The notes under the pieces were generated by a model. It ran no database searches and had not been told where the DNA came from. It worked only from the letters and a program-made list of their open reading frames with translations. From Caulobacter sp. RHG1 (lineage in GTDB: Bacteria; Pseudomonadota; Alphaproteobacteria; Caulobacterales; Caulobacteraceae), in NCBI RefSeq assembly GCF_013181195.1, contig NZ_SMZP01000012.1, positions 1-64,000 of the forward strand: a stretch of DNA of 64,000 bases. The letters are read 5' to 3'. The translations under genes and the position numbers were made by a program. Each line of letters starts with the position of its first letter. Positions within the stretch are counted from its first letter, which is position 1. This document shows positions 39,938 to 59,846 of the stretch, one piece after another.

Positions 39938-42900
39938 TTAGGCTGAGGTGGAAGCGGAAACGGCGGTTCGGGCTTGCCGGCGACGCAGCAGCAGGTATCC
40001 GGCCGGGATCACGAACATCGACAGCAGGGGCGCTGTGAGCATGCCGCCGATCATCGGGGCGGCGATGCGGCTCATGACCTCCGAGCCCGCGCCGTGGCCC
40101 CAGAGGATCGGCGCCAGGCCTGCCAGGATCACCGCCACGGTCATGGCCTTGGGCCGCACCCGCAGCAGGGCGCCTTCGCGCACCGCAGACTCGACCTGGT
40201 CGGGCGCCGGGTTCGGGCCCAGGGCGTCCATGGCGTGCTTGAGATAGATCAGCATCACCACCCCGAACTCGGCCGAGACCCCGGCCAGGGCGATGAAGCC
40301 GACGCCAGTGGCCACCGACTGGTGGAACCCCGCCAGGTAGAGCGTCCAGATCCCGCCGGTCAGGGCGAACGGCAGGGTGGCCATGATCAGCCCCGCTTCG
40401 TCGAAGCGGCGGAAGATCACGTAGAGCAGGACGAAGATGATCAGCAGGGTGGCCGGCACGACGATCTTCAGCCGGTCGGCGGCGCGCTGCAGATATTCGA
40501 ACTGGCCCGAATAGGAGAGGCTGACGCCCGGCGAGAGCTTGACCCTCTCGCCCACGGCCTGGCGCAAATCGCCGACCACCGAGGCCAGGTCCCGGCCCCG
40601 CACGTCGACATAGACCCAGGTCGTCGGCCGGCCGTTCTCGCTCTTCAACATCGGCGGGCCATCGGCGATCTCAACATTGGCGACGGTTCCCAAGGTGATC
40701 TGAGCGCCGCCTGGCGTGAGCACCGGAAGGGCGCGCAGTCCCTCCAGGCTATCGCGCAGCTCGCGGGGATAGCGGACGCTGATCGGATAGCGGGCCAGGC
40801 CCTCGACCGTCTGGCCGATGGTCTCGCCGCCGATCGCGCCCGAGACGATCGACTGGATATCGTCGATGTTGAGCCCGAACCGCGCGGCGGCGGCGCGGTC
40901 GATGCGGACGTCGACATAGCGCCCGCCGGTCAGGCGCTCGGCCAGGGCCGAGCTGACGCCGGGCACGTCCTTGGCCACCACCTCGACCTCGCGGGCGATG
41001 CGGTCGAGGTCGGTGAGGTTGCCCCCCGACACCTTGACCCCGATCGGGCTCTTGATGCCGGTGGCCAGCATGTCGATGCGGTTGCGGATCGGCGGGACCC
41101 AGACATTGGTCAGGCCGGGTACGCGAACGCGCTGGTCGAGTTCGGCCACCAGCTTGTCGGGCGTCATGCCGGGCCGCCACTGGTCGCGCGGCTTGAAGCG
41201 GATCGTCGTCTCGAACATCTCCAGCGGGGCCGGATCGGTGGCGCTTTCGGCCCGGCCGGCCTTGCCGAACACGCTCTCGACTTCCGGCACCGTCTTAATC
41301 ATCCGGTCGGTCTGCTGGAGCAGTTGGCCGGCCTTGGCCGCCGACAGGCCTGGCAGGGCCGAGGGCATGTAGAGCAGGTCGCCTTCATCCATGCTGGGCA
41401 TGAACTCGCCGCCCAGATGGGCCAGCGGCCAGGCCGTGGTCGCGAAAGCGAGCAGGGCGACGACCAGGGTGGTCCTGGGGCGGCGCATCACCCGGTCCAG
41501 CAGCGGCCGATAGGCCGCCGTCAGCACGCGGTTGATCGGGTTGGCCGCCTCGTCGGGGATGCGCCCGCGGATCAGATAGCCCATCAGCACCGGGATCAGG
41601 GTCACCGACAGGATCGCCGCCGCCGCCATGGCGTAGGTCTTGGTGAAGGCCAGGGGGCGGAAGAGCCGGCCTTCCTGCGCCTGCAGGGTGAAGACCGGGA
41701 TGAACGATAGAGTGATGATCAGGAGGCTGAAGAACAGCGCCGGCCCGACCTCGGCGGCGGCCTCCGTGATCACCGACCAGCGGGTCTTGCCGTTTAGGGT
41801 CTCGCCGGGATGATCGTGCGCCCAGCGCTCGAGCTTCTTGTGGGCGTTCTCGATCATCACCACGGCCGCATCGACCATGGCCCCGATGGCGATAGCGATG
41901 CCGCCCAGCGACATAATGTTGGCGTCCACGCCCTGGCTCTTCATCACCAGGAAAGCGGCCAGGACGCCCAGCGGCAGCGAGATGATCGCCACCAGGGCCG
42001 AGCGCAGATGGCCCAGGAAGAGGGCGCAGACCAGGGCCACGACCAGGAACTCCTCGACGAGCTTGCCGGTCAGGTTGTGAACGGCGCGGTCGATCAGGCC
42101 CGAGCGGTCATAGGTGGTGACGACCTCGACGCCGGGCGGCAGGCTCTTCTTCAGCTCGGCCAGCTTGGCCTTCACCGCCGCGATGGTCGTGCGGGCGTTC
42201 TCGCCGGAGCGCAGGATCACCACGCCGCCGGCGACCTCGCCCTGGCCGTTGAGTTCGGCGACGCCGCGCCGCATTTCCGGGCCGACCTGGATCGTGGCCA
42301 CGTCGCCGAGGCGCACTGGGACGCCGCCGGCCGCCGTCTTCAGCGGCACGGCCTGGAAGTCCTCGATCGTCTTCAGATAGCCGGTGGCGCGGACCATGTA
42401 TTCGGCCTCGCCCAGCTCCAGCACCGAGCCGCCGGTCTCGGCGTTGGCGCCTTTCAGCGCGGCGACAACCTGTTGGTGCGTGACCCCGAAGCTGGCCAGC
42501 TTCTGCGGGTCGAGCACCACCTGGTACTGGCGGACCATGCCGCCGATCGCCGAGACCTCGGCCACGCCCGGTAGGGTCTTCAGCTCATAGCGCAGGAACC
42601 AGTCCTGGATCGATCGCAGCTGGCTGAGGTCGTGGCCGCCGGTCTTGTCGACTAGGGCGTACTCGTAGACCCAGCCCACCCCGGTGGCGTCAGGACCCAG
42701 GGCCGGACGGGCGCTCTCCGGAAGACGGCCCTGGACCTGATTGAGGTACTCCAGGACCCGCGAGCGGGCCCAGTAGAGGTCGGTCTTGTCGTCGAAGATC
42801 ACATAGACGAAGCTGTCGCCGAAGAACGAATAGCCGCGCACGGTCTTGGCGCCAGGGACCGAGAGCATGGTGGTGGCCAGCGGATAGGTGACCTGGTTCT

Positions 42901-43084
42901 CGACCAGCTGCGGGGCCTGGCCCGGATAGCTGGTGCGGATGATCACCTGGGTGTCGGAGAGATCGGGCAGGGCGTCGATCGAGGTCGACCGCACCGCCAG
43001 GCCGCCGGCCACGATCAGCGCCAGGGCGCCCAGCAGCACGAAGAAGCGGTTGGCGACCGACCAGCGGATCAGGGCGGCGATCAT
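39938..43084 (-). CDS. cusA: Copper/silver efflux RND permease CusA
   Basis: The 1048-residue pump starts [18 protein letters not shown]; the ATG overlaps the cusB stop. In helix 4 it has [18 protein letters not shown] followed by IEN, the signature of HME4 pumps for Cu(I) and Ag(I), and differs from czcA in this window. [12 protein letters not shown] near the N-terminus and [19 protein letters not shown] in the second periplasmic domain are also typical. It expels monovalent copper or silver from the periplasm and cytosol through CusC. Confidence 0.93.
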
Positions 43085-44595
43085 GCGCCACCGCCGATCT
43101 TGGCGATGCGCCGGATGATCGGGTCGGCCGGCGGCGGGTCGAAGGCGAAGCGGACCTGGTCGCCGGCCTTCACGCCCTTCAGCAGCCTCGGGTCGGCGCG
43201 GAAGGTCATGGTCATGGCCGGCCAGCCGATGGCCGGCACGGGGCCGTGCGAGAGGGTGACGCCGTCCGGGGTCACCTGCTCGACGCGGCCGGTGGCTTCG
43301 GCCAGGGCCGGCTTGGCCGCCGCCGTGGGCTTGGCCATGGTCATGTCGCTCGGCGAGGTCGAAGGACCCGACGCCGGAAGCGGCTGAACCTGCAAGCCTG
43401 CCAAGCTGGCCTCGGAGTCGATCAGGAACTGGCCCGACGCGATGACCTTCTGACCAGAAGACAGCCCAGCCAGGACTTCCGTCCGGCCGCCAGCTTCGCG
43501 CCCGGTCCGGACCTCGACGGCCTGGTAGCGGCCGCCGTCGGCGGCCAGCATCACCACGTCGCGCGCCCCGGTGCGGATCACCGCCTCGGACGGGATCAGC
43601 AGGGCGGTCCGCGTCGCCGCGTCGAAGGCGATGGTGGCGAACAGGCCAGGCTTGAGGCGGCCGTCGCGGTTGGCCAGTTCGATCCGCGCCTGCAAGGTGC
43701 GGCTGTCGCCCTGGGCCTGCGGGAGCACGGCCTGGACCGTCCCGCGCAGGGTCTCGCCCGGATAGGCCGCCAGGGTGACGCCAACGCCCTGGCCCGGACG
43801 CAGCTGCCCGGCCTGCGCCTCGGGCACGGCGGCCGTGACCCAGACCCTCGAGAGGCCGTTGATCTCGGCCAGGGTCTGGCCCGCGCCCACGGTCATGCCG
43901 GCGCGCACGTCGAGCTTGGAAACGACCCCGCCGAGCGGCGCGGTGATGGTGATCGTGGTGCGCGGCCGCCCGTCTCGGTCGAGACCGGCGACCACGCCGT
44001 CGGGCATGCCCAAGAGGCGCAGGCGCTGGCGGGCGGCGGCGCTCAGGGCCGCGTCTCCGGTGCGCCGGACCGCCAGATATTCGGCCTGGGCGCCGCCCCA
44101 TTCGGGAACCAACAGGTCGGCCAGCGGCGCGCCGGCGGCGATCACGTCGCCCGGCGCGCGGCCATAAACCCGCTGCACGAAACCGCCGCTGCGGGCCTGG
44201 ACGACGGCGACGTCACGCTGGTTGAAGTCGACGATCCCGGTGGCGGTCAGGCCGCTGGAAAGCGCGCCTTCCTCCACGGTCGCCAGCCGGAAGCCGAGGT
44301 TCTGGGCGGCCGAGGGGTCGATCCGCACCCCCGCCGCCGGACCACTGGTTTCGGCCTCGCCGGCGTATTTGGGCGTCAGCGGCATGTCCATGAACGGCGA
44401 CTTGCCCGGCTTGTCGAAGTGCTGGGCCGGGACCATCGGGTCGTACCAGTAGAGCACCTTGCGGCTGTCGGCCGAGGTCGCCGGCATCGGCGGCTTGGCG
44501 GTCAGGCGGGCCAGGCCATAGCCGCCGGCCCCGGCCAGCACGACCAGGGCGGCGCCGGCGCCGAGCAGGGCCTTCATCGAGGGGGAGGGGGTCAT
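43081..44595 (-). CDS. cusB: RND adaptor CusB fused to a C-terminal CusF domain
   Basis: The 504-residue membrane-fusion protein has a membrane anchor (residues 8-30) and a heavy-metal-binding segment with [19 protein letters not shown] and MDMPLTPKY, characteristic of CusB/CusF-like adaptors. Lipoyl and beta-barrel domains follow. The last 80 residues ([32 protein letters not shown]) form a complete CusF-like domain with the Trp and Met ligands. A separate cusF also ends this operon, so two copies of the domain are encoded. Four-base overlaps join it to cusC and cusA. Confidence 0.9.
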
Positions 44596-45818
44596 TGATC
44601 GTCGCTTCCGTAGGTGAGGGTCAGGCGGGCGGCGTCGATGGCGACGGCGGCCTCGCGATCTAGGGTGGTGAGCTGGGCCTCGGCCAGGCTCGAGAAGGCG
44701 ATCAGCACGTCGGGCAAACCGGCCGCGCCGGAGCCATAGGCGGCGGTCTCCAGCTGGGCCCGCTGCTTGGCCAGCGGCAGCAGCGTGTCGCGGGCCCGCA
44801 GCCATTGCTCGTGATGCATGACGTGGTCGGCCAGATCGGCCTCGAGCTGGGCGCTCAGCGCTCGGCGGGCGTCCTCGCGCTGGGCGTCGGCGCGGCCGGC
44901 GCTGGCGGTGCGCGCGGCGATCATCGGATCCTGGCGGCTCTTGCCCCACAGCGGCAGGCTGATGCTGACCCCGGCCGAGACCATGTCGCCGAACATCGGG
45001 TCGCGGCGCTGGTAGGCCACTTCCCAGCTCCAGTCGGGCTGCTTGTCGGCCTTGGCCAGGGCGACGTCGGCCTGGGCTTGGCGGGCGGCGGCGTCCTTGG
45101 CCAGCACGGCGGGATGGCGGTCGATCGCGGCCCGAAGACTGGCGGGGGGGAGATCGAGGTCGGGCGCCGGACCGAGCGCCTCGGGGTCGGGATCTCCGGT
45201 CCAGCGGGTCAGGGCCGCACGGGCCCTCCCCAGGGCCGAGACCGCCTCGCTGCGGCGATCCGCCAGGGCCGCGCGCATCTGCGCGGCCTCCAGCGCCTGG
45301 GCGGGCCGCGAGCGTCCGGACGCGACGCCGGACGGGGCGGCGCTCCACAGGGGAGCCAGCTGGGCGACCACCCCGTCCAGGGCGGCGAGCTTGCGCTGGG
45401 CGTAGAGCAGTTCGATCCAGGCCAGCGCCGTGGCGACCCGGACCTGGCGGGCCTCGACCGCGCCCTCGGCCCCGGCCGCGACGATGTCGGCCTGCGCCCG
45501 GCCGATCCGCGCCTGGCGCTTGGCGGCGCTGGGCATGTCCTGGCTGAAGCCGACCTTGCCCATGGTCATCTCGTCGGTTCCGAACCGGCCGGCCGGCGGC
45601 CCCGAGACCGGGAAGTTGTCGAGGCCGACGGCGAGCTTGGGATCGGGCAGGGCGCCGGCCGCCTTGGCCGAGGCCTTGGCGGCCTCGACCTGCAGGGCCG
45701 CGGCGCGCAGCGCCGGCGCATTGGCCGCGGCCGCGTCGAGGCTCTGGGCGTAGGTCAGGGGCGCGGCGTGGGCGACGCTCGCCAAGCTCAGCCCGGCCAG
45801 AAGGGGGAGAATACGCAT
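44592..45818 (-). CDS. cusC: Outer-membrane efflux protein CusC (TolC family)
   Basis: The 408-residue protein has a signal peptide ending SVAHA and two outer-membrane-efflux repeats rich in Ala and Gln (LPDPKLAVGLDNFPVSG in the first, QPDWSWEVAYQRRDPMFGDMVSAG in the second). This fits the CusC/CzcC group that forms the outer-membrane channel. It heads the overlapping cusC-cusB-cusA-cusF series, with two small exported proteins encoded upstream on the same strand. Confidence 0.87.
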   Translation of the reverse strand: MRILPLLAGLSLASVAHAAPLTYAQSLDAAAANAPALRAAALQVEAAKASAKAAGALPDPKLAVGLDNFPVSGPPAGRFGTDEMTMGKVGFSQDMPSAAKRQARIGRAQADIVAAGAEGAVEARQVRVATALAWIELLYAQRKLAALDGVVAQLAPLWSAAPSGVASGRSRPAQALEAAQMRAALADRRSEAVSALGRARAALTRWTGDPDPEALGPAPDLDLPPASLRAAIDRHPAVLAKDAAARQAQADVALAKADKQPDWSWEVAYQRRDPMFGDMVSAGVSISLPLWGKSRQDPMIAARTASAGRADAQREDARRALSAQLEADLADHVMHHEQWLRARDTLLPLAKQRAQLETAAYGSGAAGLPDVLIAFSSLAEAQLTTLDREAAVAIDAARLTLTYGSDDQ

Positions 45819-45942
45819 GGAGACGAAAATCCTGGAGGAAGCCGTGAGGGGCCAGCGCCCCGGCGAAGCGTTTGCAGCCGCTTCGCCGGGGCCGGACGGG
45901 ACGGGCGAAGACAGGGGATCGGCCCCACCCGTCCCGGCCGAG

Positions 45943-46068
45943 CTAGCGAGCCAGGCAGGCCGGTTGGGCGGCCCGCAAATAGCCGCAGGCGCGTGGCGTG
46001 GCGGCCGAGACGGTCGTCGCGGAAGCTAGGCCGGAGACGAGCGCCAGCGCGGGAAGGCGGGGAGACAT
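45943..46068 (-). CDS. Candidate small exported Cys-containing peptide
   Basis: This 41-codon frame starts with a hydrophobic signal-like segment (LPALALVSGLASATTVSA) followed by a short mature part, ATPRACGYLRAAQPACLAR, with two Cys. An AAGG 9 bases upstream fits the ATG at 46068. It lies between cusC and a Cys-rich exported protein gene on the same strand, so it could be a small periplasmic copper-binding peptide of the cus operon. No homologue is known to me and it may be spurious. Confidence 0.35.
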   Translation of the reverse strand: MSPRLPALALVSGLASATTVSAATPRACGYLRAAQPACLAR

Positions 46069-46183
46069 GAAGGTCATCCTTGAAGATCGAAAAGCCAGCC
46101 GGCGAAAGCGCGGGCGATCACGCGCGCCCGGCAGGACCGGGGCGTGAAACCAGCGATGGCGGGGATCGGCCCTCGGGCCGGTC

Positions 46184-46546
46184 CTAGGCGATCGTTCGGG
46201 GGGGCGGATCTTCGGGGATGAGGCGGTGGGTGCGGCCGCTGGTGTTGGACCAGCGGGTCTCGACGCGATAGCCGACGGCGATCGGGGTCTCCGAGCCCGG
46301 GCAGGGGGCCGCAACGGACAGGGCGCAACTGATCGCGCAGGCCTTGGCGCAATCCTTGGCCGACATGGTCTTGCCGTGATCGCAGCAGGGCTCGGCCTGG
46401 GCCACGTCGTCGCCGGCGGGGGCCATGGCGATCATGCTCATCGCGTCCATGCCGGCCATGTCGCAATCAGCCCGCGCGGCGTTGACCGCCAGCGGACTGA
46501 ACGCGAGGGCCACGGCGGCCAGGAAAGCGAGCGCATGCCTTAGCAT
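46184..46546 (-). CDS. Hypothetical Cys/Met-rich exported protein
   Basis: The 120-residue product has a signal peptide (AFLAAVALAFSPLAVNAARA) and a mature part rich in Cys and Met (CDMAGMDAMSMIAMAP, EPCCDHGKTMSAKDCAKACAISC). It then ends with a beta-like tail GYRVETRWSNTSGRTHRLIPEDPP. The Cys/Met content and the place before cusC suggest periplasmic copper binding. Short proteins like this are found before copper-efflux operons in alphaproteobacteria, but I cannot name a family. Divergent from the DUF305 gene. Confidence 0.6.
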   Translation of the reverse strand: MLRHALAFLAAVALAFSPLAVNAARADCDMAGMDAMSMIAMAPAGDDVAQAEPCCDHGKTMSAKDCAKACAISCALSVAAPCPGSETPIAVGYRVETRWSNTSGRTHRLIPEDPPPRTIA

Positions 46547-46834
46547 CGGGCGAGCTTAGCGCGGTCACACGGCCTCGTCATGTCCGGACAATCCCCGAAT
46601 GCGATTTGCCGCGACGCGCGCGGACTGGCGACGGCTTGGAGGCGGGGCCTGAAAGCCGCCATCTGGTCCAATACGCAGCGGCCTGGACCATCCCTCGACC
46701 TTTGGCGCGGTCGCGGTGAATATTTTCAGAGGCGGAACCGGGGCGCCGTTCGCCGGTTGTGGGAGCATCGCAACCCGCTGGAAAACCTCGCCCCGGCGCG
46801 TGGTTGCGCCGGGCTCCAGGAGCGGAAAACAGTC

Positions 46835-47314
46835 ATGGCCGAGCACCACGCGCCCAAAGACCATCAACACCACAGGCCCTACCTGCGCCTGGCCGCCATG
46901 ACCGTGCTGTCGTTCCTGGCCATGTATGTCCTGATGTACGCCATGGTCGACAGGGCCGCGAACATCCATCCAAGCTTCAACCAGGCCTACATGGCCGGCC
47001 TGATGACCGCGCCGATGGTCATGCTCGAACTCGTGCTCATGGGCATGATGTATCCGCGCAAGGGCCTCAACCGCGGCTTGGTCGCGTCCAGCCTCGTCAT
47101 CGGGGTCTTGTGCTTTGCGGCCATTCGCCAGCAGTGGCTGGTCGGCGACCGCGAGTTCCTGCGCTCGATGATCCCGCATCACGCTGGCGCGATCCTGATG
47201 TGCGGACGCGCGCCGGTGAAGGATCCTGAGATCCGCAGCCTTTGCGCCACGATCATCAAGGGCCAGCAGCAGGAGATCGACCAGATGAGCGCCATGCTCG
47301 CGCCCCTTCGCTGA
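46835..47314 (+). CDS. DUF305 domain membrane protein
   Basis: The 159-residue protein has a His-rich start (MAEHHAPKDHQHHRP), three hydrophobic helices (LRLAAMTVLSFLAMYVLMYA, AYMAGLMTAPMVMLELVLMG, SLVIGVLCFAAI) and a C-terminal DUF305 half with MIPHHAGAILMCGRA, the His-pair motif of the ferritin-like fold. DUF305 proteins are frequent in copper-resistance clusters, with no firmly established function. An AGGAG lies a rather long 13 bases upstream of the ATG. Confidence 0.8.
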   Translation: MAEHHAPKDHQHHRPYLRLAAMTVLSFLAMYVLMYAMVDRAANIHPSFNQAYMAGLMTAPMVMLELVLMGMMYPRKGLNRGLVASSLVIGVLCFAAIRQQWLVGDREFLRSMIPHHAGAILMCGRAPVKDPEIRSLCATIIKGQQQEIDQMSAMLAPLR

Positions 47315-47988: not shown

Positions 47989-48254
47989 CGCCGCTGCCTC
48001 TCGACCGGTTCGTTGGGATTGGCCGGCGCGTCCGCCGGGATGCGGCCGGGCGCGTCCTCTCGCCCGTGCTGATGGGCGCCATGGCCATGGTGCATGAACA
48101 GGTGCATCAGCGGACAGGCCAGTAGGAGCAGATAGGGCAAGACGCCGAGCACATGCGCGGCGTGCTCGGTGGTCAGGAAGAAGCCGGCGATCAGCAGGAA
48201 CCCGACCAGGACGATCGTTCCGCGCCGACGCAGCTTTTGGTGTTGAACATCCAT
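47985..48254 (-). CDS. DUF2933 domain-containing small membrane protein
   Basis: The 89-residue protein has two hydrophobic helices (IVLVGFLLIAGFFLTTEH and LGVLPYLLLLACPLMHLFMHH) and a His-rich HHGHGAHQHGRED stretch, the DUF2933 pattern. These proteins accompany copper and silver resistance genes; the His cluster could bind metal. It is the first gene of a coupled pair with the methyltransferase-like gene. Confidence 0.8.
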   Translation of the reverse strand: MDVQHQKLRRRGTIVLVGFLLIAGFFLTTEHAAHVLGVLPYLLLLACPLMHLFMHHGHGAHQHGREDAPGRIPADAPANPNEPVERQRR

Positions 48255-48459
48255 GGATCGCTCACTTCAGGCCTTGACGCCCTATCATAGGCCCGCGACC
48301 CGGGCGCCAAGTATAGGTAGAGGCCGCAGCGGCGGGTGGGGGCGGCGCCCGCGGGTCCCCGGAGGCAGGCGGCGATGTCTGCGGCCTTTGCGTATTGGCC
48401 CGCGGCGACCGAGCCTGAAAGGCTGCGCGGCGAGCATCATCACCAGAGGCAAGCCGCCC

Positions 48460-49920
48460 ATGCACAGGAACAGGAAGAAGCAACGGCTCCACGGCAATTT
48501 CGGAACGGCCGCCCTTGAACGCGAAGCGCGCATCGACCTTGCCGAGCGGCCGGCCGGCGGCCTTGCCGTGGCCTTCCTCGGCGCGTCGGGCACGGTGACG
48601 GGCTCGCGCTACCTGCTGGACGACGGCCAGACCCGGATCGTGGTCGATTCCGGTCTGTTCCAGGGGGCCAAGGACCTGCGCCGCCTCAACTGGGCGCCGC
48701 TTGCGCCCGAGGTGGCCGACGTCGAGCAGGTGCTGCTCACCCACGCCCATCTCGACCATTCGGGCGCCCTGCCACGCATGGCCCGCCTGGGATGGGATGG
48801 GACCGTCCTCAGCACGCCGGCCACGGCGGCCCTTTGCCAACTGCTGCTCGCCGACAGCGGGCGCATCCAGGAGAAGGACGCGGAGTTCGCCAACCGCCAC
48901 GGCTTCTCGCGCCACGATCCGGCGCTGCCGCTCTACACGGAGGCCGACGCGCGCCTGGCCCTGCGGCTGTTCGAGACCATCGGGTTTGGCGAATGGCGCT
49001 CGCTCGCCGACGGGATCAGGACGCGCTACCATCGCGCCGGCCACATCCTCGGCGCGGCGTCGATCGAGATCGACTGGAAGGGCCGGTCGGTTCTCTTCTC
49101 GGGCGATATCGGGCGCTATGACGACGCGGTGATCAAGGACCCCGAACCGCCGGCGCGGGCCGACTACGTCATCGTCGAATCCACCTATGGCGACCGCCGC
49201 CATGACCGCGTGGATCCGTCGCGGGCGCTGGGAGACCATATCGAACGGTGCATCCGACGCGGGGGAACCGTGGTGATCCCCGCCTTCGCGGTCGGTCGCG
49301 TCCAATCGCTGCTCTATCATCTGTCCCGTCTGCGCGCGGACGGCCGGCTGCGTGATGCGCCGATCTATCTGGACAGCCCGATGGCGATCGACGCCAGCGG
49401 GCTGATGTGTGATTTCATGGACGAACACAGGCTGAGCCGCGCGGCATGCGAAGCCGCGTGCGGCGTCGCGCACTATGTGCGCGAAGTCGAGGAATCCAAG
49501 GCGCTGACCGCGGACGCCACCCCCAAGGTGATCATCTCGGCCAGCGGCATGGCGACCGGTGGCCGCGTCGTGCACCATCTCAAGCGGTTCGCCCCGGATG
49601 AGCGCAACCTCATCCTGTTCTCCGGCTTCCAGGCGGCCGGCACGCGCGGCGCTGCGCTCGTCTCGGGGGCCCGGACGATCAAGATCCACGGCGAACACGT
49701 CCCCGTCCACGCCGAGGTGGCGAACCTGACCATGCTGTCGGCCCACGCCGACAGCGACGAGCTCATGCGGTGGCTGGGCGCCATGCAGGCGGCGCCGCGG
49801 CATGTCTATGTCACCCATGGCGAGCCGGCCGGCGCGCAGGTCCTGGCCAAGCGCATCGGCGAGGAACACGGCTGGCCTTGCACCGTCCCGACCCTCGGCA
49901 GCTGGGGGCGGCTGGCGTGA
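48460..49920 (+). CDS. MBL-fold RNA-processing exonuclease-like metallohydrolase
   Basis: The 486-residue protein starts at the ATG at 48460 (AGAGG upstream). It has the metallo-beta-lactamase motif THAHLDH (residues 94-100, zinc ligands His/His/Asp/His), further ligands in RAGHILGAAS and LFSGDIGRYD, and beta-CASP motifs STYGDR, SASGMATGGR and LSAHADS. This is the layout of YSH1/CPSF-like and bacterial RNase proteins, so it likely cleaves RNA. The N-terminal 30 residues are basic. Its stop overlaps the GTG start of the phosphorylase gene, coupling RNA breakdown to nucleotide use. Confidence 0.85.
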   Translation: MHRNRKKQRLHGNFGTAALEREARIDLAERPAGGLAVAFLGASGTVTGSRYLLDDGQTRIVVDSGLFQGAKDLRRLNWAPLAPEVADVEQVLLTHAHLDHSGALPRMARLGWDGTVLSTPATAALCQLLLADSGRIQEKDAEFANRHGFSRHDPALPLYTEADARLALRLFETIGFGEWRSLADGIRTRYHRAGHILGAASIEIDWKGRSVLFSGDIGRYDDAVIKDPEPPARADYVIVESTYGDRRHDRVDPSRALGDHIERCIRRGGTVVIPAFAVGRVQSLLYHLSRLRADGRLRDAPIYLDSPMAIDASGLMCDFMDEHRLSRAACEAACGVAHYVREVEESKALTADATPKVIISASGMATGGRVVHHLKRFAPDERNLILFSGFQAAGTRGAALVSGARTIKIHGEHVPVHAEVANLTMLSAHADSDELMRWLGAMQAAPRHVYVTHGEPAGAQVLAKRIGEEHGWPCTVPTLGSWGRLA

Positions 49921-51455
49921 GCGTCCCAAGGCACGAGCAGGCCGACGCGAGGCCGGCGTCGGCCACGCTGCGCGCGCGTCGCATGGGGCTCACCGCGGCT
50001 GGCGGCGACATGATCGCGGTGATGCGGCACGACTGCCCGGTCTGCCGGTCCGAGGGCCTGGGGTCGCGCGCCCAGGTCGTCCTGCGCGCCGGCGGCCGCG
50101 AGGCGGTGGTGTCCTTGTTGCACAGCTCGGGCGACACGCCAGACCCCGGCGAGATCGGCCTTTCCGAGACCGCATGGGCCCGGCTCGGGGTCAAGGCGGG
50201 CGACCGCGTGGAGGTCGCCCACGCTCCGCCGTTGGCCTCGCTGCGGGCGGTGCGCCGCCGGATCTATGGAGAGCGCCTGAGCCAGGCGGCCTTTTCGGCG
50301 ATCGTCGCGGATATCGCCGAGCATCGCTATAGCGACGTCCACCTCTCGGCGTTCGTCACCGCCTGTTCGGCGGCGCCGCTCGATCAGGCCGAGACGATCG
50401 GACTGACCAAGGCCATGGTCGAGGTCGGCGAGCAGTTGAGCTGGCCTGGGCCGATCGTCGTCGACAAGCACAGCGTCGGCGGCTTGCCGGGCAACCGCAC
50501 CACGCCGATCATCGTCTCGATCATGGCGGCCGAAGGCCTGGTCATGCCCAAGACCTCCTCGCGCGCGATCACCTCACCGGCCGGCACCGCCGACACCATG
50601 GAGGTTCTGGCGCCCGTCGACCTCGACATCGCCGCGATCCGCCGGGTGGTGGCGCGCGAGGGGGGCTGCATCGCCTGGGGCGGGGCGGTTCGGTTGAGCC
50701 CGGCCGACGACGTGATCATTGGCGTCGAGCGGGCGCTCGACATCGACGCGGTCGGCCAGCTGGTGGCCTCGGTGCTGTCCAAGAAGATCGCCGCCGGCGC
50801 GACCCACCTGGTGATCGACGTTCCTGTGGGACCGACCGCCAAGGTGCGGAGCCTGGAGGCCGCGCGGGATCTCGAGGCGGCGCTCACCTCGGTGGCCGCC
50901 GCCTTCGGCCTGCGCACGCGGGTGATGTATGGCCCTGGGGCTGAGCCGATCGGACGCGGCATCGGGCCGGCGCTGGAGGCGCTGGACATACTGGCCGTGC
51001 TTCAAGGCGAGCCCGGCGTCGAGGATCTCGCCCATAGGGCCTGTGAACTGGCCGGGGGATTGTTCGAGCTGGCGGGCGTGGCGGCCCCTGGCGCTGGCCT
51101 CGCGCGCGCGCGGCAAAGCCTCGAGAGCGGCCGCGCCTGGGCCAAGTTCAAGCGCATCTGCCAGGCCCAAGGCGGCATGCGCTCGCCGCCGGTCGCCCGC
51201 TTCCAGCGAGACCTGACCGCGCCCTCCAGCGGCCGGATCGCCAGCATCGACAACCGCAAACTCGCGACCGTCGCCAAGCTCGCGGGCGCGCCGATGGCCA
51301 AGGCGGCCGGGGTGGCGGTCCACGCCCGGCTCGGCCAGTCGATCGTCGCGGGGTCGCCCTTGTGCACCCTTCACGCCGAGAGCCCCGGCGAACTGGACTA
51401 TGCGGCCGCCTTCGCCTTGAGCGACGGGGCGATCTTCGCGATCGCGGCGCCATGA
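49917..51455 (+). CDS. Thymidine phosphorylase/AMP phosphorylase family protein
   Basis: The 512-residue protein belongs to the pyrimidine-nucleoside phosphorylase superfamily in the longer, archaeal AMP-phosphorylase-like form. It has an N-terminal domain of about 100 residues, then KAMVEVGEQLSWPGPIVVDK, the phosphate-binding DKHSVGGLPGNRTT (from residue 183) and the SRAITSPAGTADTMEVL block. It would release base from (deoxy)nucleosides or NMPs by phosphorolysis. GTG at 49917 overlaps the preceding stop; the end overlaps the PRPP synthetase start by four bases. Which substrate it uses is not certain. Confidence 0.83.
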   Translation: MSVPRHEQADARPASATLRARRMGLTAAGGDMIAVMRHDCPVCRSEGLGSRAQVVLRAGGREAVVSLLHSSGDTPDPGEIGLSETAWARLGVKAGDRVEVAHAPPLASLRAVRRRIYGERLSQAAFSAIVADIAEHRYSDVHLSAFVTACSAAPLDQAETIGLTKAMVEVGEQLSWPGPIVVDKHSVGGLPGNRTTPIIVSIMAAEGLVMPKTSSRAITSPAGTADTMEVLAPVDLDIAAIRRVVAREGGCIAWGGAVRLSPADDVIIGVERALDIDAVGQLVASVLSKKIAAGATHLVIDVPVGPTAKVRSLEAARDLEAALTSVAAAFGLRTRVMYGPGAEPIGRGIGPALEALDILAVLQGEPGVEDLAHRACELAGGLFELAGVAAPGAGLARARQSLESGRAWAKFKRICQAQGGMRSPPVARFQRDLTAPSSGRIASIDNRKLATVAKLAGAPMAKAAGVAVHARLGQSIVAGSPLCTLHAESPGELDYAAAFALSDGAIFAIAAP

Positions 51456-52336
51456 CGCCGCCGATCGTCTTCGCCTTGGACGGCGGCGAGCGCCTGGCCC
51501 AAGCCCTTGGCCCAGCGCTCGGCGCGGAGGCAGGGGTCCTGCTGCAGCGCCAGTTTCCAGATGGCGAGACCTACCTTCGGATCGACAGCGACGTCACCGA
51601 GCGCGATGTCATCCTGGTCTGCGGCCTCGAGCGTCCGGACGCGAAATTGCCGCCGCTGCTCTTCGCGGCGGACACGCTGCGCGAGCTTGGCGCGCGCGGG
51701 GTGGGCCTGATCGCGCCCTATCTGGCCTACATGCGCCAGGACACCCGTTTCCATCCGGGCGAGGCGGTCACGTCGCGTATTTTCGCGGCGGTGCTCTCGC
51801 GCCACCTCGACTGGCTGGTGACCGTCGATCCCCACCTGCACCGCCATCACGCCCTGGCGGAGATCTACCGAATCCCCAGCCAGCTCGTTCACGCCGCGCC
51901 GCTCATGGCGTCGTGGATCAGGCGGAACGTCGCCCGACCGGTGATCGTCGGGCCCGATCTGGAGAGCGAGCAGTGGGTGGCGCAGGTGGCGGCCGGCGCC
52001 GACGCGCCGTTCCTGGTCTGCCAAAAGCAGCGGTCCGGGGATCGTGAGGTCGACATCTCGATCCCCAACGCCGGCGCCTTCCTGGGCCGCCAAGCCGTGC
52101 TCGTCGACGACATCGCCTCGTCGGGCCGCACGCTCGCCGTCGCGGCCCGCCAGCTCAAGGCCCTGGGTTTTGCGCCGCCGGACTGCGTCGTGGTGCATGC
52201 GCTGTTCGCCGGCGACGCCGCCCAGGTCCTGGGCGAACATGTCGCGCGCATCGTCAGCACCAACACGGTCGCCCATGCGTCGAACGCCATCGACATGACG
52301 CCGGCGATCGCCCAGGCCGTGCGCGCCCTGCTGTGA
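51452..52336 (+). CDS. Ribose-phosphate pyrophosphokinase (PRPP synthetase-like)
   Basis: The 294-residue protein has the PRPP synthetase layout: RQFPDGETYLRIDSDV near the start, the metal/ATP loop region LVTVDPHLHRHHALAEIY, and the ribose-5-phosphate/PRPP loop VDDIASSGRTLAVAARQLK near residue 220. It would make PRPP from ribose 5-phosphate and ATP, or act on another phosphoribose. It is the last gene of the three-gene overlapping operon and probably a second, specialised copy rather than the housekeeping prs. Confidence 0.83.
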   Translation: MTPPIVFALDGGERLAQALGPALGAEAGVLLQRQFPDGETYLRIDSDVTERDVILVCGLERPDAKLPPLLFAADTLRELGARGVGLIAPYLAYMRQDTRFHPGEAVTSRIFAAVLSRHLDWLVTVDPHLHRHHALAEIYRIPSQLVHAAPLMASWIRRNVARPVIVGPDLESEQWVAQVAAGADAPFLVCQKQRSGDREVDISIPNAGAFLGRQAVLVDDIASSGRTLAVAARQLKALGFAPPDCVVVHALFAGDAAQVLGEHVARIVSTNTVAHASNAIDMTPAIAQAVRALL

Positions 52337-52488: not shown

Positions 52489-53115
52489 ATGGGGGACAAG
52501 CGTGTCGTTCATATCGTCGACGACGAGGAGACGATCCAGCGGTCGGTCGGCTTCATGCTCCGCGCCACGGGCTTCAGCGTCGAGACCTATCCGTCGGGGA
52601 CGGCGTTTGTGGCCGTCGCGACGCAGGCCAAGATCGGCTGCGTCATCCTGGACATGCAGATGCCGGGCCTGGGCGGGCTTGAGGTTCAGGTCGCCCTGGC
52701 CGATATCGGCGTCGACATGCCGGTCGTCGTGCTGACCGGCAATGGCGATGTCGCCCTGGCGGTCCGGGCGATGCGGGCCGGGGCCGTCGACTTCCTGGCC
52801 AAGCCTGTTGAAAAGGCCATGCTGCTCGAAGCGCTCCATCGCGGCTTCGCGCGCATCGACCGGGCCGATGGCCGGGCGGCCGAGGAAGCCGAGGCGCAGG
52901 GCCGCGTCGAGGCCCTGTCGCCGCGCGAGCGGGATGTCCTCGAAGGTCTCGCCCAGGGGCGCGCGAACAAGGCCATCGCCTATGATCTCGGGATCTCCTC
53001 GCGCACGGTCGAGGTCTGTCGCGCGAGCCTGGCACGCAAGCTCGGCGTCCAGACCTTGGCCCAGACCCTGCGGATCGCCTTCGCGGCGGGGATGGGACGG
53101 CCGCCGCGAGCCTAG
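52489..53115 (+). CDS. FixJ family response regulator (first)
   Basis: The 208-residue protein has a receiver domain (VDDEETIQRSVGFML, phosphorylated Asp 55 in CVILDMQMPGLGG, conserved Lys in FLAKPVEK) and a LuxR-type DNA-binding domain (SPRERDVLEGLAQGRANKAIA, then SSRTVEVCRASLARKLGV). It is a close paralogue of the FixJ at 59223, but has Cys where FixJ proteins have His in the recognition region (VEVHRA). GGAGG precedes the ATG. No kinase lies next to it; FixL at 57698 is the likely partner. Confidence 0.85.
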   Translation: MGDKRVVHIVDDEETIQRSVGFMLRATGFSVETYPSGTAFVAVATQAKIGCVILDMQMPGLGGLEVQVALADIGVDMPVVVLTGNGDVALAVRAMRAGAVDFLAKPVEKAMLLEALHRGFARIDRADGRAAEEAEAQGRVEALSPRERDVLEGLAQGRANKAIAYDLGISSRTVEVCRASLARKLGVQTLAQTLRIAFAAGMGRPPRA

Positions 53116-53146: not shown

Positions 53147-54913
53147 CTAGTCCGCGATCAGATGAAACCGCTCGACCAGCTTGGCGATCTCGGTGCCTTC
53201 CAGCGTCTTCAGCAGCAGCTTGCGCAGGATGGCGGGGCCGGGGATCTCGATGCCCTCGCCATCCCGCAGCGGCGCGACGGCGGCCAGCAGAGTGCGAATG
53301 TCATAGGTCGAGTTGAACACTTCGGGCACGCCGCGCTCGACATCGAGCAGCGTGTAGACCGCCTCCATCGGCGTGCGGACCGAATACTCCGTGGTGAAGA
53401 TGCAGTCGCGCTGCTTGGACTCGGCGAACTGGCCGATGAAGGCGAAATTGACGGCCCCCGCCGGGACCACGTCCGGCCGGTCTCCGGCCTGGCGGGGCAT
53501 GAAGAAGGCGGTGATATAGGGCATCATCACCGGCACGGTCCTGGCGCCGCTCGCCGCGAGATCGGCGATATCCTCGACCGGGACGCCGAGGTGATAGAGC
53601 CATTCCTGGGTGATCTCCTCGCCAGTGCAGGCCTGCATCGGCTTTTTCACATAGTCGCCGGGCCGATCGACGAACAGGGCGTAGAACCAGGCCACGAGCT
53701 GGTCCTTCGGCTGCTTCTTGAAATGGGGCTGGCGGCTGACCGTCCAACTCAGCAGCCAGCTCGAATCCTTGGCCGTGACGATGCCGGCGGTGACCACCTT
53801 GCCGCTGAACGGATCGCGCTTGGCGATCTTGCGGATGTACTGCGGAATACGCGCGTCGAGCGTGGTGATGGTCGCCGACGCCCATTTGGTCTGCGCAATA
53901 TGGGCCCCGAACACGTCGGGACGTCCGAAGGCCGGGTCCTTGGCCGCGATGCGCCGCCACAGGTCCCAGGCGGGCGCCGGGCCTTGATTCAGCTTGGCCG
54001 GGGTCTGATGGTCGCCGCTGTCGGAATTTTCGGTCAGCGACCCGATGGTGATGAACACCAGATCGTCGGGGCCAAGATCGACGCCGCCCTCGGCGCCCTT
54101 CTCGATCCAGCCGATCCGCGTCGCCTGCTTGCGTTCGGCGTCGATCGCGAAATCGATGTCGGTGACCTGAACGCCGTAGCGGAACCGGACGCCCTGATCC
54201 TGCAGCCACTTGACCAGCGGCAGGACCATCGACTCGTATTGATTGTACCGGTTGAACTTGAGCGACGAGAAGTCGGCGAGCTGGCCGATGTGGTGGATGA
54301 AGCGGTGGAGATAGAGTTTCATCTCCAGGGCCGAATGCCACTCCTCGAACGCGAACATCGTACGCCAGAACAGCCAGAAATTGCTCTTCAGGAAATCGGG
54401 GCCGAACACCTCGTTGATCCGCTTGTTCTCCATCTCTTCGCGGGTCGCCAGGAAGACGGAGAGGAGCTCTCGTTGGGCCTTGTCGTTCAGCGTCAGCAGC
54501 GCCTTGTCGGGCACATCCTGCCCGCGGCTCTGCGTGACCCGCTGCAGCGAGACGTTCGGATCGTCCTTGTTGAGCCGGTAGAATTCGTCGAGGACGCTGG
54601 CGTCTTCGAGCTCGAGCGAGGGGATCGAGCGGTAGAGATCCCAGAGGCACTCGAAATGCGCCTCCATCTCGCGCCCGCCGCGGATGACGAACCCCTTTTC
54701 CGCCACGTCCAGGCCATCAAGGGCGCCGCCGGGAAGCTCCAGCTCCTCGAGAAGCGTGATGCGCTGGCCCGCGACGCCGCCGTCCCTGATGAGGAAGGCC
54801 GCGCCCGCCAGGCCGGCGAGGCCCGCGCCGACGAACCAGGCCGTCGCCCTGTCGGCCCGCTCCGGCTTGCGGGGACGGACGAACGCTTCATAATTTCCGC
54901 GGCTGTAATGCAT
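53147..54913 (-). CDS. ohyA: Oleate hydratase
   Basis: The 588-residue flavoprotein matches oleate hydratase: FAD-binding GAGLAGLAGAAFLIRD near residue 30, the conserved RGGREMEAHFECLWDLYRSI block, NDKAQRELLSVF, and the substrate region QYESMVLPLVKWLQDQGVRF. The enzyme adds water to the cis-9 double bond of oleic acid to give 10-hydroxystearate. The length is normal. It follows the copper ATPase gene by 60 bases on the same strand, so the two may share a promoter. A role in membrane or fatty acid stress is plausible; the link to copper is inference. Confidence 0.92.
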   Translation of the reverse strand: MHYSRGNYEAFVRPRKPERADRATAWFVGAGLAGLAGAAFLIRDGGVAGQRITLLEELELPGGALDGLDVAEKGFVIRGGREMEAHFECLWDLYRSIPSLELEDASVLDEFYRLNKDDPNVSLQRVTQSRGQDVPDKALLTLNDKAQRELLSVFLATREEMENKRINEVFGPDFLKSNFWLFWRTMFAFEEWHSALEMKLYLHRFIHHIGQLADFSSLKFNRYNQYESMVLPLVKWLQDQGVRFRYGVQVTDIDFAIDAERKQATRIGWIEKGAEGGVDLGPDDLVFITIGSLTENSDSGDHQTPAKLNQGPAPAWDLWRRIAAKDPAFGRPDVFGAHIAQTKWASATITTLDARIPQYIRKIAKRDPFSGKVVTAGIVTAKDSSWLLSWTVSRQPHFKKQPKDQLVAWFYALFVDRPGDYVKKPMQACTGEEITQEWLYHLGVPVEDIADLAASGARTVPVMMPYITAFFMPRQAGDRPDVVPAGAVNFAFIGQFAESKQRDCIFTTEYSVRTPMEAVYTLLDVERGVPEVFNSTYDIRTLLAAVAPLRDGEGIEIPGPAILRKLLLKTLEGTEIAKLVERFHLIAD

Positions 54914-54973: not shown

Positions 54974-57310
<2,337 letters not shown>

Positions 57311-57335
57311 CCGCGCGTTCCTTTCGCCAGCAGCC

Positions 57336-57386
57336 CTTGTAGGGTCTGAGATCGTGCCGGGGTCAATACGTACTCTCCTCAGACCC
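57336..57386 (-). promoter_or_regulatory. Candidate promoter and operator of the copper ATPase gene
   Basis: On the minus strand TTGACC (57366-57361), a 19-bp spacer and TACAAG (57341-57336) form a promoter-like pair. A perfect 9-bp inverted repeat spans it: GGGTCTGAG at 57342-57350 (next to the -10) and CTCAGACCC at 57378-57386 (upstream of the -35), 27 bp apart. I infer a metal- or oxygen-responsive regulator site; the protein is unknown. Confidence 0.48.
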
Positions 57387-57697
57387 GCGGCTGGAGAGGG
57401 CAACAGGCCGCGAGGCGTTCGACAAGCCGCGCGGGCGCCAAGCAACGGCGCGGCCGCACTTTGCGCTGAAATTCTGAGGGGACCGGCCGGCCCGCGCGTA
57501 AACGCGATAGGACCCCGCGGATACAAGCGAGACCGTGACCCATGGATGCACTATCGGACCCGCGCGCGTGGGGGCTGAAGGCTGGCGCGCGGCGTTGTCG
57601 GGCGGCCTGCCGGTCCGGCCCCGCGGGGTGTCGCCAAGCTCGCGCTCGCGCCGCATCGCCGCGCCTGCGCGCCGCGGATCTGGCCTGAGCCGGCGGC
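57387..57697. other. Gene-free region upstream of fixL
   Basis: About 310 bp of very GC-rich DNA between the copper ATPase promoter and fixL. I find no convincing reading frame, no FNR/FixK-type box (TTGA-N6-TCAA) and no strong promoter; fixL also lacks a clear ribosome binding site. Confidence 0.5.
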
Positions 57698-59233
57698 ATG
57701 CGCGACCAGGATCAAGGCCCCGAGGCGGGCGTGGCCGCCGTCGAGCAGCTTGCGCGGCTGTTTCTGCGCCAGGCCGGCGGCTATGTCCTGACGCTGCTTG
57801 CCGCCTCGGGACGGGTCCTGAGCTACAATATCGGCGGCGAACGGATCGAATGCTGGTCAGCCGATCACGTCGTCGGCCAGCAGCACGATGTCTTCTATCC
57901 GCCCGATGAGATCCACGCCGGGCGTCCCCGGGCGGATCTCGCCGCGGCCTTGCGCGACGGCGTGCTGGAGCGCGAGGCCTGGCGGGTCTGCGAAAACGGC
58001 GCTGAATACCTCGCCCGCCTGACCGTCACGCCGCTGTTCGACGCGGGCGCGCATCGCGGCTTCGCCTGCATCGCCCGCGACATCACCGACGAGGCCGCGG
58101 TGCGCGCCTCCATCGAAACGCGCGAGCAGCATTTGCAATCGATCCTGGCGACGGTGCCGGACGCGATGATCATCATCGACGAGGCCGGCGCCATCACCTC
58201 GTTCAGCGCGGCGGCCGAGCGCCTGTTCGGCTATCGCGAGGCCGAGCTGATCGGCCGCAATGTCGCGTGTCTGATGCCCGAGCCGGACCATGGCCGGCAC
58301 GACGCGTACATCAACCACTACCTGCAGACCGGCGAGCGCAGGATCATCGGCGTCGGCCGCGTCGTGGTGGGGCTGCGACGTGACGGGTCGACCTTCCCGA
58401 TGGAGCTTTCGGTCGGCGAGGCGGGCGAGAACGGCCAGCGGCTGTTCACCGGCTTCATTCGCGATCTGACCGCCAAGGAGCAGGACGAACTGAAGCTGAA
58501 GGCGCTTCAGGCCGAGCTGGTTCATGTCTCCCGGCTGAGCGCCATGGGCACCATGGCCTCGACCCTGGCGCATGAACTCAACCAGCCTCTGGCGGCCGTC
58601 TCGCTCTATCTGGAGACGATCCGCGACATGCTGGAAGCCGAGCAGGGGGAACCCTTCGCCACCTTTCGCCGGGTCATGGACGAGGCCGCGCAGGAAACCC
58701 TGCGCGCTGGCCATATCGTGCGCCGCCTGCGCGACTTCGTGGCGCGCGGCGAGGTCGAGAAGAGCCTGCACGACCTGGCGCAGGTGATCGGCGACGCCGG
58801 CCAGCTGGCGCTCGTGGGCGCGCGCGAGCGGGGGGTGCGCAGCTTCTTCGATTTCGATCCGGCGGCCACGCCCGTCCTCGTCGATCGGGTGCAGATTCAA
58901 CAGGTCCTGGTCAACCTTATGCGCAACGCCATCGAGGCGATGGCGGACACCCCGATCCGCGACCTGAGAATCGCCACGCGCCTGCGCGGCGACGGCCTGA
59001 TCGAGGTCACCGTCGAGGATAGCGGGCCGGGCATCGCCGAGGACATCGGCGAGCAGCTCTTCACGGCGTTCGTCTCGACCAAGGCCGACGGCATGGGTCT
59101 GGGGCTCTCGATCTGCCGGACCATCATCGAAGCGCACGGCGGGCGGATCTGGGTCGAGGCGCCTGAGCGTGGCGGCGCCCGGTTCCATTTCACCTTGATC
59201 CACGCGGGGGCGGAGGAGGATTATGGGGGATAG
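57698..59233 (+). CDS. fixL: Oxygen-sensing histidine kinase FixL
   Basis: The 511-residue soluble protein has two PAS domains and a histidine kinase. The second PAS (residues 145-260) is the FixL heme domain: MPEPDHGRHDAYINHYLQTG, with His 201 as heme ligand, and ERRIIGVGRVVVGLRRDGS, with Arg 221, matching His 200 and Arg 220 of Bradyrhizobium FixL. The kinase has the phosphorylated His 292 in LAHELNQPLAAVSLYLE and ATP-site boxes (NAIEAMAD, DSGPGIAED, GMGLGLSIC). It should be inhibited by bound O2 and phosphorylate FixJ at low oxygen. Its end overlaps fixJ by 11 bases. Confidence 0.92.
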   Translation: MRDQDQGPEAGVAAVEQLARLFLRQAGGYVLTLLAASGRVLSYNIGGERIECWSADHVVGQQHDVFYPPDEIHAGRPRADLAAALRDGVLEREAWRVCENGAEYLARLTVTPLFDAGAHRGFACIARDITDEAAVRASIETREQHLQSILATVPDAMIIIDEAGAITSFSAAAERLFGYREAELIGRNVACLMPEPDHGRHDAYINHYLQTGERRIIGVGRVVVGLRRDGSTFPMELSVGEAGENGQRLFTGFIRDLTAKEQDELKLKALQAELVHVSRLSAMGTMASTLAHELNQPLAAVSLYLETIRDMLEAEQGEPFATFRRVMDEAAQETLRAGHIVRRLRDFVARGEVEKSLHDLAQVIGDAGQLALVGARERGVRSFFDFDPAATPVLVDRVQIQQVLVNLMRNAIEAMADTPIRDLRIATRLRGDGLIEVTVEDSGPGIAEDIGEQLFTAFVSTKADGMGLGLSICRTIIEAHGGRIWVEAPERGGARFHFTLIHAGAEEDYGG

Positions 59234-59846
59234 GCGGATCATACACCTCGTCGACGACGAAGAGGCGATCCGGCGCGCGGCCGGGTTCGCCTTGAAGACG
59301 GCGGGCTTTGGCGTGGAGACCTACGCTTCGGGCGTGGAGTTCCTGAGGGCGGCCCGGTCGACGACCCAGGGCTGCGTCATTCTCGACGTGCGCATGCCGG
59401 CGATGGACGGCCTGGAGGTGCAGACCGCCATGGCCGAGCGCGGCATCCAGATGCCGGTCATCGTGCTGACGGGTCATGGCGATGTGTCGGTCGCGGTTCA
59501 GGCGATGAAGGCCGGCGCCGTGGATTTCCTCGAAAAGCCCTTCGAGAAGGCCGCTCTTCTCCATGCGGTCGAGCGAGCATTCGCGCGTATCGACGACGCC
59601 GACGTCCGCGCGATCGAGGCGTCGGACGCGCAGGTGCGCATCGCCAGCCTCACCCCTCGTGAGCGCGAGGTGCTGGAGGGCTTGGCCCAAGGCCATCCCA
59701 ACAAGACCATCGCCTATGACCTTGGATGCTCGTCACGCACCGTGGAGGTGCATCGCGCCAGCCTGATGACCAAGCTGGACGTGCGCAACCTGTCCGAGGC
59801 GCTTAGGATCGCCTTCGCCGCCGGGATGGGCCGCAAACCCAAGTGA
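59223..59846 (+). CDS. fixJ: Response regulator FixJ
   Basis: The 207-residue protein has a receiver domain (VDDEEAIRRAAGF, Asp 55 in CVILDVRMPAMDG, conserved Lys in FLEKPFEK) and a LuxR-type DNA-binding domain (TPREREVLEGLAQGHPNKTIA, then SSRTVEVHRASLMTKLDV). This is the FixJ architecture, and overlap with fixL shows they are made together. Phosphorylated FixJ activates microaerobic genes; its targets here are unknown and no fixK is visible. Confidence 0.9.
   Translation: MGDRRIIHLVDDEEAIRRAAGFALKTAGFGVETYASGVEFLRAARSTTQGCVILDVRMPAMDGLEVQTAMAERGIQMPVIVLTGHGDVSVAVQAMKAGAVDFLEKPFEKAALLHAVERAFARIDDADVRAIEASDAQVRIASLTPREREVLEGLAQGHPNKTIAYDLGCSSRTVEVHRASLMTKLDVRNLSEALRIAFAAGMGRKPK

Follow-up and report, generated by a model that had tools for sequence, protein, structure and literature searches.

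Introduction

In Thermococcus kodakarensis, a nucleoside 5'-monophosphate (NMP) phosphorylase (TK0352; PDB 4ga4-4ga6) has been reported to convert NMPs to ribose-1,5-bisphosphate (R15P), and the Thermococcus literature describes its further passage through R15P isomerase to RuBisCO, the archaeal NMP shunt or pentose bisphosphate pathway. PhnN, a ribose 1,5-bisphosphokinase, converts R15P to phosphoribosyl pyrophosphate (PRPP). Among bacteria, Bradyrhizobium diazoefficiens has a set of three genes, bll3117-bll3116-bll3115, with the same annotations as the genes described here, the phosphorylase being named "thymidine phosphorylase family". One study lists all three with positive values in a microoxia differential-expression table, for protein and gene (PMC6515984). 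A second report shows bll3115 and bll3117 lowered in a fixK2 deletion, predicts an operon bll3117-bll3116-bll3115 with a FixK2 box at -74 before bll3117, and has genes for phosphoketolase, acetate kinase, and oleate hydratase in the same FixK2 table (PMC9104804). Here we analyzed a stretch of 64,000 nucleotides (the window), which comprises positions 1-64000 of the 79,421-base contig NZ_SMZP01000012.1 of Caulobacter sp. RHG1 (GCF_013181195.1; genome 5.6 Mb), and in it an operon at 48460-52336 of three genes, coding for a β-CASP nuclease-like protein, an NMP phosphorylase-like protein, and a homolog of PRPP synthetase (PRS). The Bradyrhizobium set, likened to this trio by annotation, has the order phosphorylase-PRS-metallo-β-lactamase (MBL) and a FixK2 box, whereas in the window the nuclease comes first and no box was found.

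We propose that the operon may be a mobile low-oxygen ribose-salvage unit, in which RNA nucleotides would be converted to free base and R15P, and R15P to ribose 5-phosphate (R5P); we put the probability of this reading at roughly 0.55. The annotation of the trio and the microoxia- and FixK2-linked operon of Bradyrhizobium were already known. The link with PhnN, the tight partnership with PRS, and the changed pyrophosphate loop described below are new; among the titles listed in our literature search, which left subscription journals mostly uncovered, none dealt with the trio enzymes in bacteria or with PhnN next to an NMP phosphorylase.

Results

The Operon and Its Gene Joints

The genes and joints of the operon are as follows:

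48460-49920, forward strand: MBL/β-CASP RNA metallo-hydrolase of the TTHA0252 type, a probable ribonuclease (486 residues; PF10996, PF07521, PF00753)
49917-51455, forward strand: NMP phosphorylase-like protein with a GTG start, predicted to catalyze NMP + phosphate (Pi) -> base + R15P (512 residues; PRK04350, TIGR02645)
51452-52336, forward strand: PRS homolog of subfamily PRK07199 (294 residues; 406.9 bits, cut-off 322)
49917-49920, forward strand: GTGA overlap of the nuclease stop (TGA, 49918-49920) and the phosphorylase start (GTG, 49917-49919)
51452-51455, forward strand: ATGA overlap of the phosphorylase stop (TGA, 51453-51455) and the PRS start (ATG, 51452-51454)

The coordinates and the joint sequences GTGA and ATGA confirmed the three reading frames and the two stop/start overlaps of the initial annotation, and p1, a near-identical plasmid from Caulobacter sp. 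FWC26, is annotated with starts that give identical overlaps. For comparison, 92 loci were assembled, comprising 80 named loci (the best 80 of 581 relatives matching two peptide patterns) and 12 from a class sample of 240 Alphaproteobacteria genomes. They reduce to 75 non-redundant loci, some of which end at contig ends, which lowers gene counts. In these 75, the upstream gene ended in ATGA or GTGA at 43/50 nuclease-phosphorylase joints and 38/52 phosphorylase-PRS joints, far more often than the remaining conserved genes in these loci (76/290). The trio overlaps are thus beyond chance. They point to translational coupling; the fixed stoichiometry that had been claimed from them is not demonstrated by an overlap.

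The Phosphorylase

The window phosphorylase passed the cut-offs of PRK04350 (636.2 bits, cut-off 434) and TIGR02645 (550.5, cut-off 434.6), and failed the equivalog models for thymidine and pyrimidine-nucleoside phosphorylases, TIGR02643 (T_phosphoryl; 140.8 against 570.7) and PRK06078 (143.1 against 559). It matched the archaeal structure 4ga5 at 2.4e-99, and the match, which extends into the N-terminal domain, places it in the fold family of TK0352; 4ga4 and 4ga5 are its closest relatives of solved structure by sequence. We take 4ga4 and 4ga5 to be the AMP (adenosine monophosphate) phosphorylase of T. kodakarensis, and the AMP site listed for it in HAMAP to be G168, S194-S199, T203, D256, S264, and K288. 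In the 4ga5 alignment these residues are identical in the window protein, and T219, S220, T224, D277, S285, and K309 occur in 80/80 named loci; the search patterns introduce a bias in the DKH and SRAITSPAG stretches and do not cover K309, D277, and S285. The window protein also departs from the solved thymidine/pyrimidine phosphorylases 1brw and 1uou where the archaeal enzyme does, in the PGN-R/K-T loop, the SRAITS stretch, and Lys309. Because the AMP-site residues are kept and the thymidine phosphorylase models failed, R15P is predicted as the product, and we strongly infer that the trio phosphorylase is of the NMP type. The earlier proposal of an AMP phosphorylase-like rather than a thymidine-type enzyme is therefore borne out by models, alignment, and residue counts.

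Pyrophosphorolysis (NMP + pyrophosphate -> PRPP), raised by the fold shared with TrpD, was also considered; it is disfavored by the phosphate-binding Lys, which presumably corresponds to K84 of E. coli thymidine phosphorylase and is present in 80/80 loci, in a pattern-biased stretch. The N-terminal domain of the trio phosphorylases carries a CxxC pair (residues 40 and 43), with C40 in 67/80 and C43 in 77/80 named loci; of 14 further relatives listed, 13 cover the site, and all of these lack the second Cys. This pair could serve in metal binding or redox sensing. Three phosphorylase-like proteins from loci without PRS (L054, L055, and L052) have neither the proton-donor Asp, replaced by Ser or Tyr, nor the DKH Lys, and possibly have another function.

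The PRS Homolog

The third protein passed the cut-off of TIGR01251 (174.1 bits, cut-off 113) as well as that of PRK07199. Its AlphaFold2 model (mean predicted local distance difference test score 94.6) aligned with the Thermoplasma volcanium structure 3mbi over 285 residues (Z score 35.3, root-mean-square deviation 1.7), the full PRS fold, and its nearest solved relative by sequence is the Methanocaldococcus jannaschii PRPP synthetase 1u9y. The main departure from the family lies in one loop:

51950-51976, forward strand: codons of residues 167-175 (GPDLESEQW), with Glu171-Ser172 in place of the pyrophosphate-loop Gly-Gly

We take the loop after D170 to be the pyrophosphate-holding loop of PRS and phosphoribosyltransferase structures. 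We compared 54 trio PRS sequences (the window and 53 trio loci) with 13 other PRS copies from ten genomes. The loop reads PD-x-E-S in 54/54 trio sequences, and Glu-Ser was found in 0/13 of the other copies, which have the first Gly in 13/13 and the second in 12/13 (PD-x-G-G in 12/13). Two archaeal PRS structures have PD-x-G-A; the trio PRS does not show the expected PD-x-G-[GA] pattern. PD-x-E-S was also present in all 130 fetched loci of the subfamily in which the loop was covered, some places being counted twice. Compared with PRPP synthetases of classes I and III, the trio PRS has the whole fold and nearly all R5P- and ATP-binding residues in common, and differs in Glu-Ser for Gly-Gly/Ala, in DPHLHR (DLHAGQ in most other PRS), and in having no SVSxLF-type C-terminal tail. 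Trp175 is a further mark of the group, lost in L168 and G051. The assignment of the third gene as PRPP synthetase-like therefore stands at the level of family and fold; ordinary PRPP synthesis, which it seemed to imply, is doubtful because the pyrophosphate loop is changed.

Conservation and Mobility of the Trio

In the class sample, 34/240 genomes had the phosphorylase and 17/240 the PRS (PRK07199) over the cut-offs, and all 17 were among the 34 (P 5e-17). In a phylum sample of 349 Pseudomonadota genomes, the PRS was found at E <= 1e-70 in 38 (37 over the cut-off) and the phosphorylase at E <= 1e-100 in 41. The phosphorylase was present in 38/38 of these PRS genomes, and the pair lay within 200 bp in 36, which upholds the conservation on which the initial annotation depended. 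Among the 75 non-redundant loci, 68 had the PRS, 58 the nuclease, and 53 both. The gene orders of the 92 loci (two unscored) included nuclease-phosphorylase-PRS alone (24), phosphorylase-PRS (18), PRS-XFP-nuclease-phosphorylase (6), and phosphorylase-PRS-nuclease (2), besides others. In the 53 loci that carry the complete trio, the distances of the three proteins were correlated, with Mantel r 0.69-0.76 compared with 0.27 for the best of 500 permutations.

The window phosphorylase is 99.8% identical to the copy on p1, the conjugative 298-kb plasmid of strain FWC26. The class and phylum given above for the sampled genomes follow from this match. Relatives at E <= 1e-60 were found in 115/72,556 plasmid records, 29 of them from Sphingobium. 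The trio is thus an accessory and mobile unit, given a near-identical copy on a conjugative plasmid and many plasmid-borne relatives. Phosphorylase-PRS pairs of the trio type also occur in L126 and L145, in records labeled Fulvivirgaceae and Gemmatimonadetes, which suggests transfer of the pair beyond Pseudomonadota.

The Fate of R15P

To our knowledge, R15P is no substrate for a normal PRPP synthetase. The RNA-to-ribose route proposed earlier overlooked this gap: the predicted phosphorylase product would be unusable by an ordinary PRPP synthetase as the next enzyme. No match was found in the RHG1 genome to R15P isomerase at E <= 1e-15, the isomerase that would be expected from the archaeal pathway (RuBisCO was not searched for), or to PhnN at E <= 1e-20. 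R15P isomerase was also over the cut-off in 0/240 genomes of the class sample, the weaker matches in 107/240 being likely other members of the superfamily. Since neither enzyme was found at the limits used, both were set aside as exits in RHG1, and R15P is left without a known exit in this genome.

PhnN, related by model hits to guanylate kinase and so unlike PRS, is nevertheless like the trio PRS a partner of related phosphorylases. It is fused to the phosphorylase in L053 (192.2 bits, cut-off 156) and is its divergent neighbor in L039, L163, and L166; no PRS or nuclease match was found in the 9-18 kb around any of these four phosphorylases. PhnN and PRS therefore look like alternative partners. 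One genome (G254) carries a PhnN-type pair as well as a full trio, and many other phosphorylase relatives without PRS have no PhnN either.

The Nuclease and the Neighboring Genes

The first protein holds Beta-Casp, RMMBL, and Lactamase_B domains together with the metal motifs, the domain set of β-CASP RNases. It matched RNase TTHA0252 at 9.6e-71, with the HAHLDH and β-CASP regions aligned. The two share domain set and metal motifs; unlike TTHA0252, the putative nuclease of the window sits in a nucleotide-salvage operon.

The surroundings of the operon contain the following:

52489-53115, forward strand: FixJ-like response regulator, 152 bp downstream of the PRS gene (FixJ model 211.8 bits, below the cut-off of 255)
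53147-54913, reverse strand: oleate hydratase (PRK13977, 864 bits, cut-off 567)
57698-59233, forward strand: FixL-like PAS sensor kinase (FixL model 524.8 bits, below the cut-off of 850)
59223-59846: open reading frame after the FixL-like kinase, annotated as a response regulator in the FWC26 plasmid
39938-47314 and 54974-57526: RND efflux genes, a DUF305 gene, and a copper-type P-ATPase, flanking the operon

FixL- and FixJ-like genes are thus near the operon as stated earlier. On p1 the gene order is shared, with trio, response regulator, oleate hydratase, heavy-metal P-type ATPase, and PAS sensor/response regulator. A P-ATPase related to the copper-type one of the window was found near 32/75 loci, and the SYK-6 plasmid copy is situated within a copper-resistance region. 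In L033 and L052, the phosphorylase lies among heat-shock-like (dnaK, grpE, hrcA) and RNase PH-like genes, as named from their sequences.

Near the 75 loci we also found acetate kinase (9), GAPDH-II (8), phosphoketolase (3), and an XFP-like gene (16). The last codes for a phosphoketolase-like protein of about 790 residues in or beside the operon (e.g., L084:3704-6058, L092:4222-6603). In the eight rows viewed, it has SDGAFEE at the place of the GDGE motif and keeps LNG and several His, and it possibly catalyzes a different reaction.

Discussion

Our results are consistent with a salvage route of three steps. The β-CASP enzyme, together with other RNases, would degrade RNA to 5'-NMPs. The phosphorylase, in all likelihood acting as its archaeal counterpart does, would then convert NMP and Pi to free base and R15P. 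Finally, the PRS homolog may link C1-phosphorylated ribose to R5P, directly or via PRPP, by moving the C1-phosphate toward an adenine nucleotide and freeing R5P. PhnN would fill the R15P-consuming role beside some related phosphorylases without an adjacent PRS. The R5P could enter the pentose phosphate pathway, or in some relatives phosphoketolase and acetate kinase, and phosphate energy would be kept; the neighboring genes suggest the latter destination for some hosts, not for RHG1.

One specific form of the last step, which we advance tentatively and regard as rather unlikely, is that the PRS homolog acts as a ribose-1,5-bisphosphate:AMP phosphotransferase (R15P + AMP = R5P + ADP). In the normal PRS reaction, a diphosphate passes between ATP and the C1 oxygen of R5P, and in reverse AMP would attack the C1-linked phosphorus. 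With Glu in the pyrophosphate loop, the second phosphate could be kept out, and a single phosphoryl group would be moved instead. The reaction is slightly uphill under standard conditions and would therefore depend on high AMP and on R5P being removed.

Several observations weigh against the salvage reading as a whole. Our literature search, within the limits given above, found no activity report for trio enzymes of this family. The phosphorylase scored 471.3 bits against the AMP_phos equivalog TIGR03327, below the cut-off of 535, so we call it NMP phosphorylase-like and not an equivalog; unlike TK0352, which has Val at this position, it keeps the DKH Lys of the thymidine phosphorylase type. 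The counterpart of E. coli R99 is Lys or Arg in only 38/54 trio PRS and is Thr98 in the window. A 2026 preprint, which defines bacterial PRPS classes II and IV-XI, states that the major PRPS classes retain the catalytic residues. In genome G051, a PRS scoring below the cut-off has the trio-type loop, and there is no NMP-type phosphorylase, which counts against strict linkage. PhnN was absent from 16/17 genomes with phosphorylase and PRS; this is the chance level (P 0.31), and we rejected PhnN absence as evidence for the role of the PRS.

The supply of NMPs, the control of the operon, and the use of R5P meet similar objections. No nuclease was found near 17/75 loci, and some loci run into contig ends. 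TTHA0252, the closest characterized relative of the nuclease, is an endoribonuclease, so the NMPs do not have to originate from this enzyme. The family assignment in the earlier suggestion that a β-CASP nuclease yields the nucleotides has thus held, and the role given to it is not supported. The low-oxygen role proposed for the operon agrees with the published microoxia and FixK2 link of the Bradyrhizobium trio; however, no FixK-type box (TTGAY-N4-RTCAA) was found upstream of the window operon, the best match in 48089-48459 having 3 mismatches. A box with at most one mismatch preceded 8/82 loci (9.8%), compared with 6.2% of random stretches. With no box before the operon and no clear enrichment across the 82 operons, control of the window operon by FixK was dropped. 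The Burkholderia low-oxygen-activated (lxa) locus was considered as a possible home of the trio, and "thymidine phosphorylase" was not found among the lxa papers listed. There was no phosphoketolase match in the RHG1 genome, and few loci have one.

It is possible, though in our view doubtful, that the PRS homolog is a divergent-class enzyme with ordinary PRPP synthetase activity, which keeps PRPP in balance or operates in the reverse direction (PRPP + AMP -> R5P + ATP), another enzyme using the R15P. According to a published account, E. coli PRPS contacts R5P through D170, D220, D221, T225, and T228, and the nucleotide through F35, D37, R99, and H131. Seven of the nine counterparts (F35, D37, H128, D169, D219, D220, T227) are identical in 52-54 of the 54 trio PRS, and that of T225 is Ser or Thr in 53/54, the correspondence having been read by eye from alignments. 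This conservation, the TIGR01251 score, and the fact that the alternative partner PhnN makes PRPP all speak for ordinary synthesis. Set against them are the Glu-Ser loop of all 54 sequences and the finding of at least one other PRS in each of the eight genomes, among the ten compared, with a trio-type copy, so that this copy is not needed for PRPP supply; in addition, no consumer of R15P was found in the RHG1 genome.

An anabolic salvage role is unlikely. Here the phosphorylase would be reversed, making NMPs from bases and R15P, with the PRS homolog or PhnN tuning the supply of R15P and PRPP. The Thermococcus enzyme has been reported to permit conversion of nucleosides to NMPs via R15P. However, the ribonuclease, acetate kinase, and phosphoketolase-like neighbors and the microoxia link fit breakdown better. 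A still smaller chance attaches to the PRS homolog having lost catalysis and controlling the phosphorylase as a sensor of AMP or R5P. The changed loop would suit such a role, and regulatory PRPS pseudoenzymes have been reported from eukaryotes, but the flexible-loop Lys192 and Arg194, RQD, His128, and Asp219/Asp220 are kept in 52-54 of 54 sequences, unlike in a decaying pseudoenzyme. That the phosphorylase truly acts on thymidine or pyrimidine nucleosides and has neighbors unrelated to it, as its database name, its distant similarity to DeoA and PyNP, and its DKH Lys would have it, is very improbable in view of the failed T_phosphoryl model, the loop and Lys309 unlike those of 1brw and 1uou, and its presence with PRS in 38/38 genomes.

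If the ribose-salvage reading is true, an archaeal-type NMP phosphorylase would enter bacterial low-oxygen physiology from a widespread, often plasmid-borne operon whose enzyme is named "thymidine phosphorylase", and the handling of R15P outside archaea would be accounted for. If the R15P:AMP transfer is also true, the PRS homolog, together with the phosphorylase and adenylate kinase, would yield ATP from RNA and Pi, independently of oxygen and membranes. The changed loop is in addition a warning that PRPP may not be the product of a conserved PRS-like subfamily that carries the name ribose-phosphate diphosphokinase. The trio allows a cheap test of whether bacteria gain energy from their own RNA once respiration stops.

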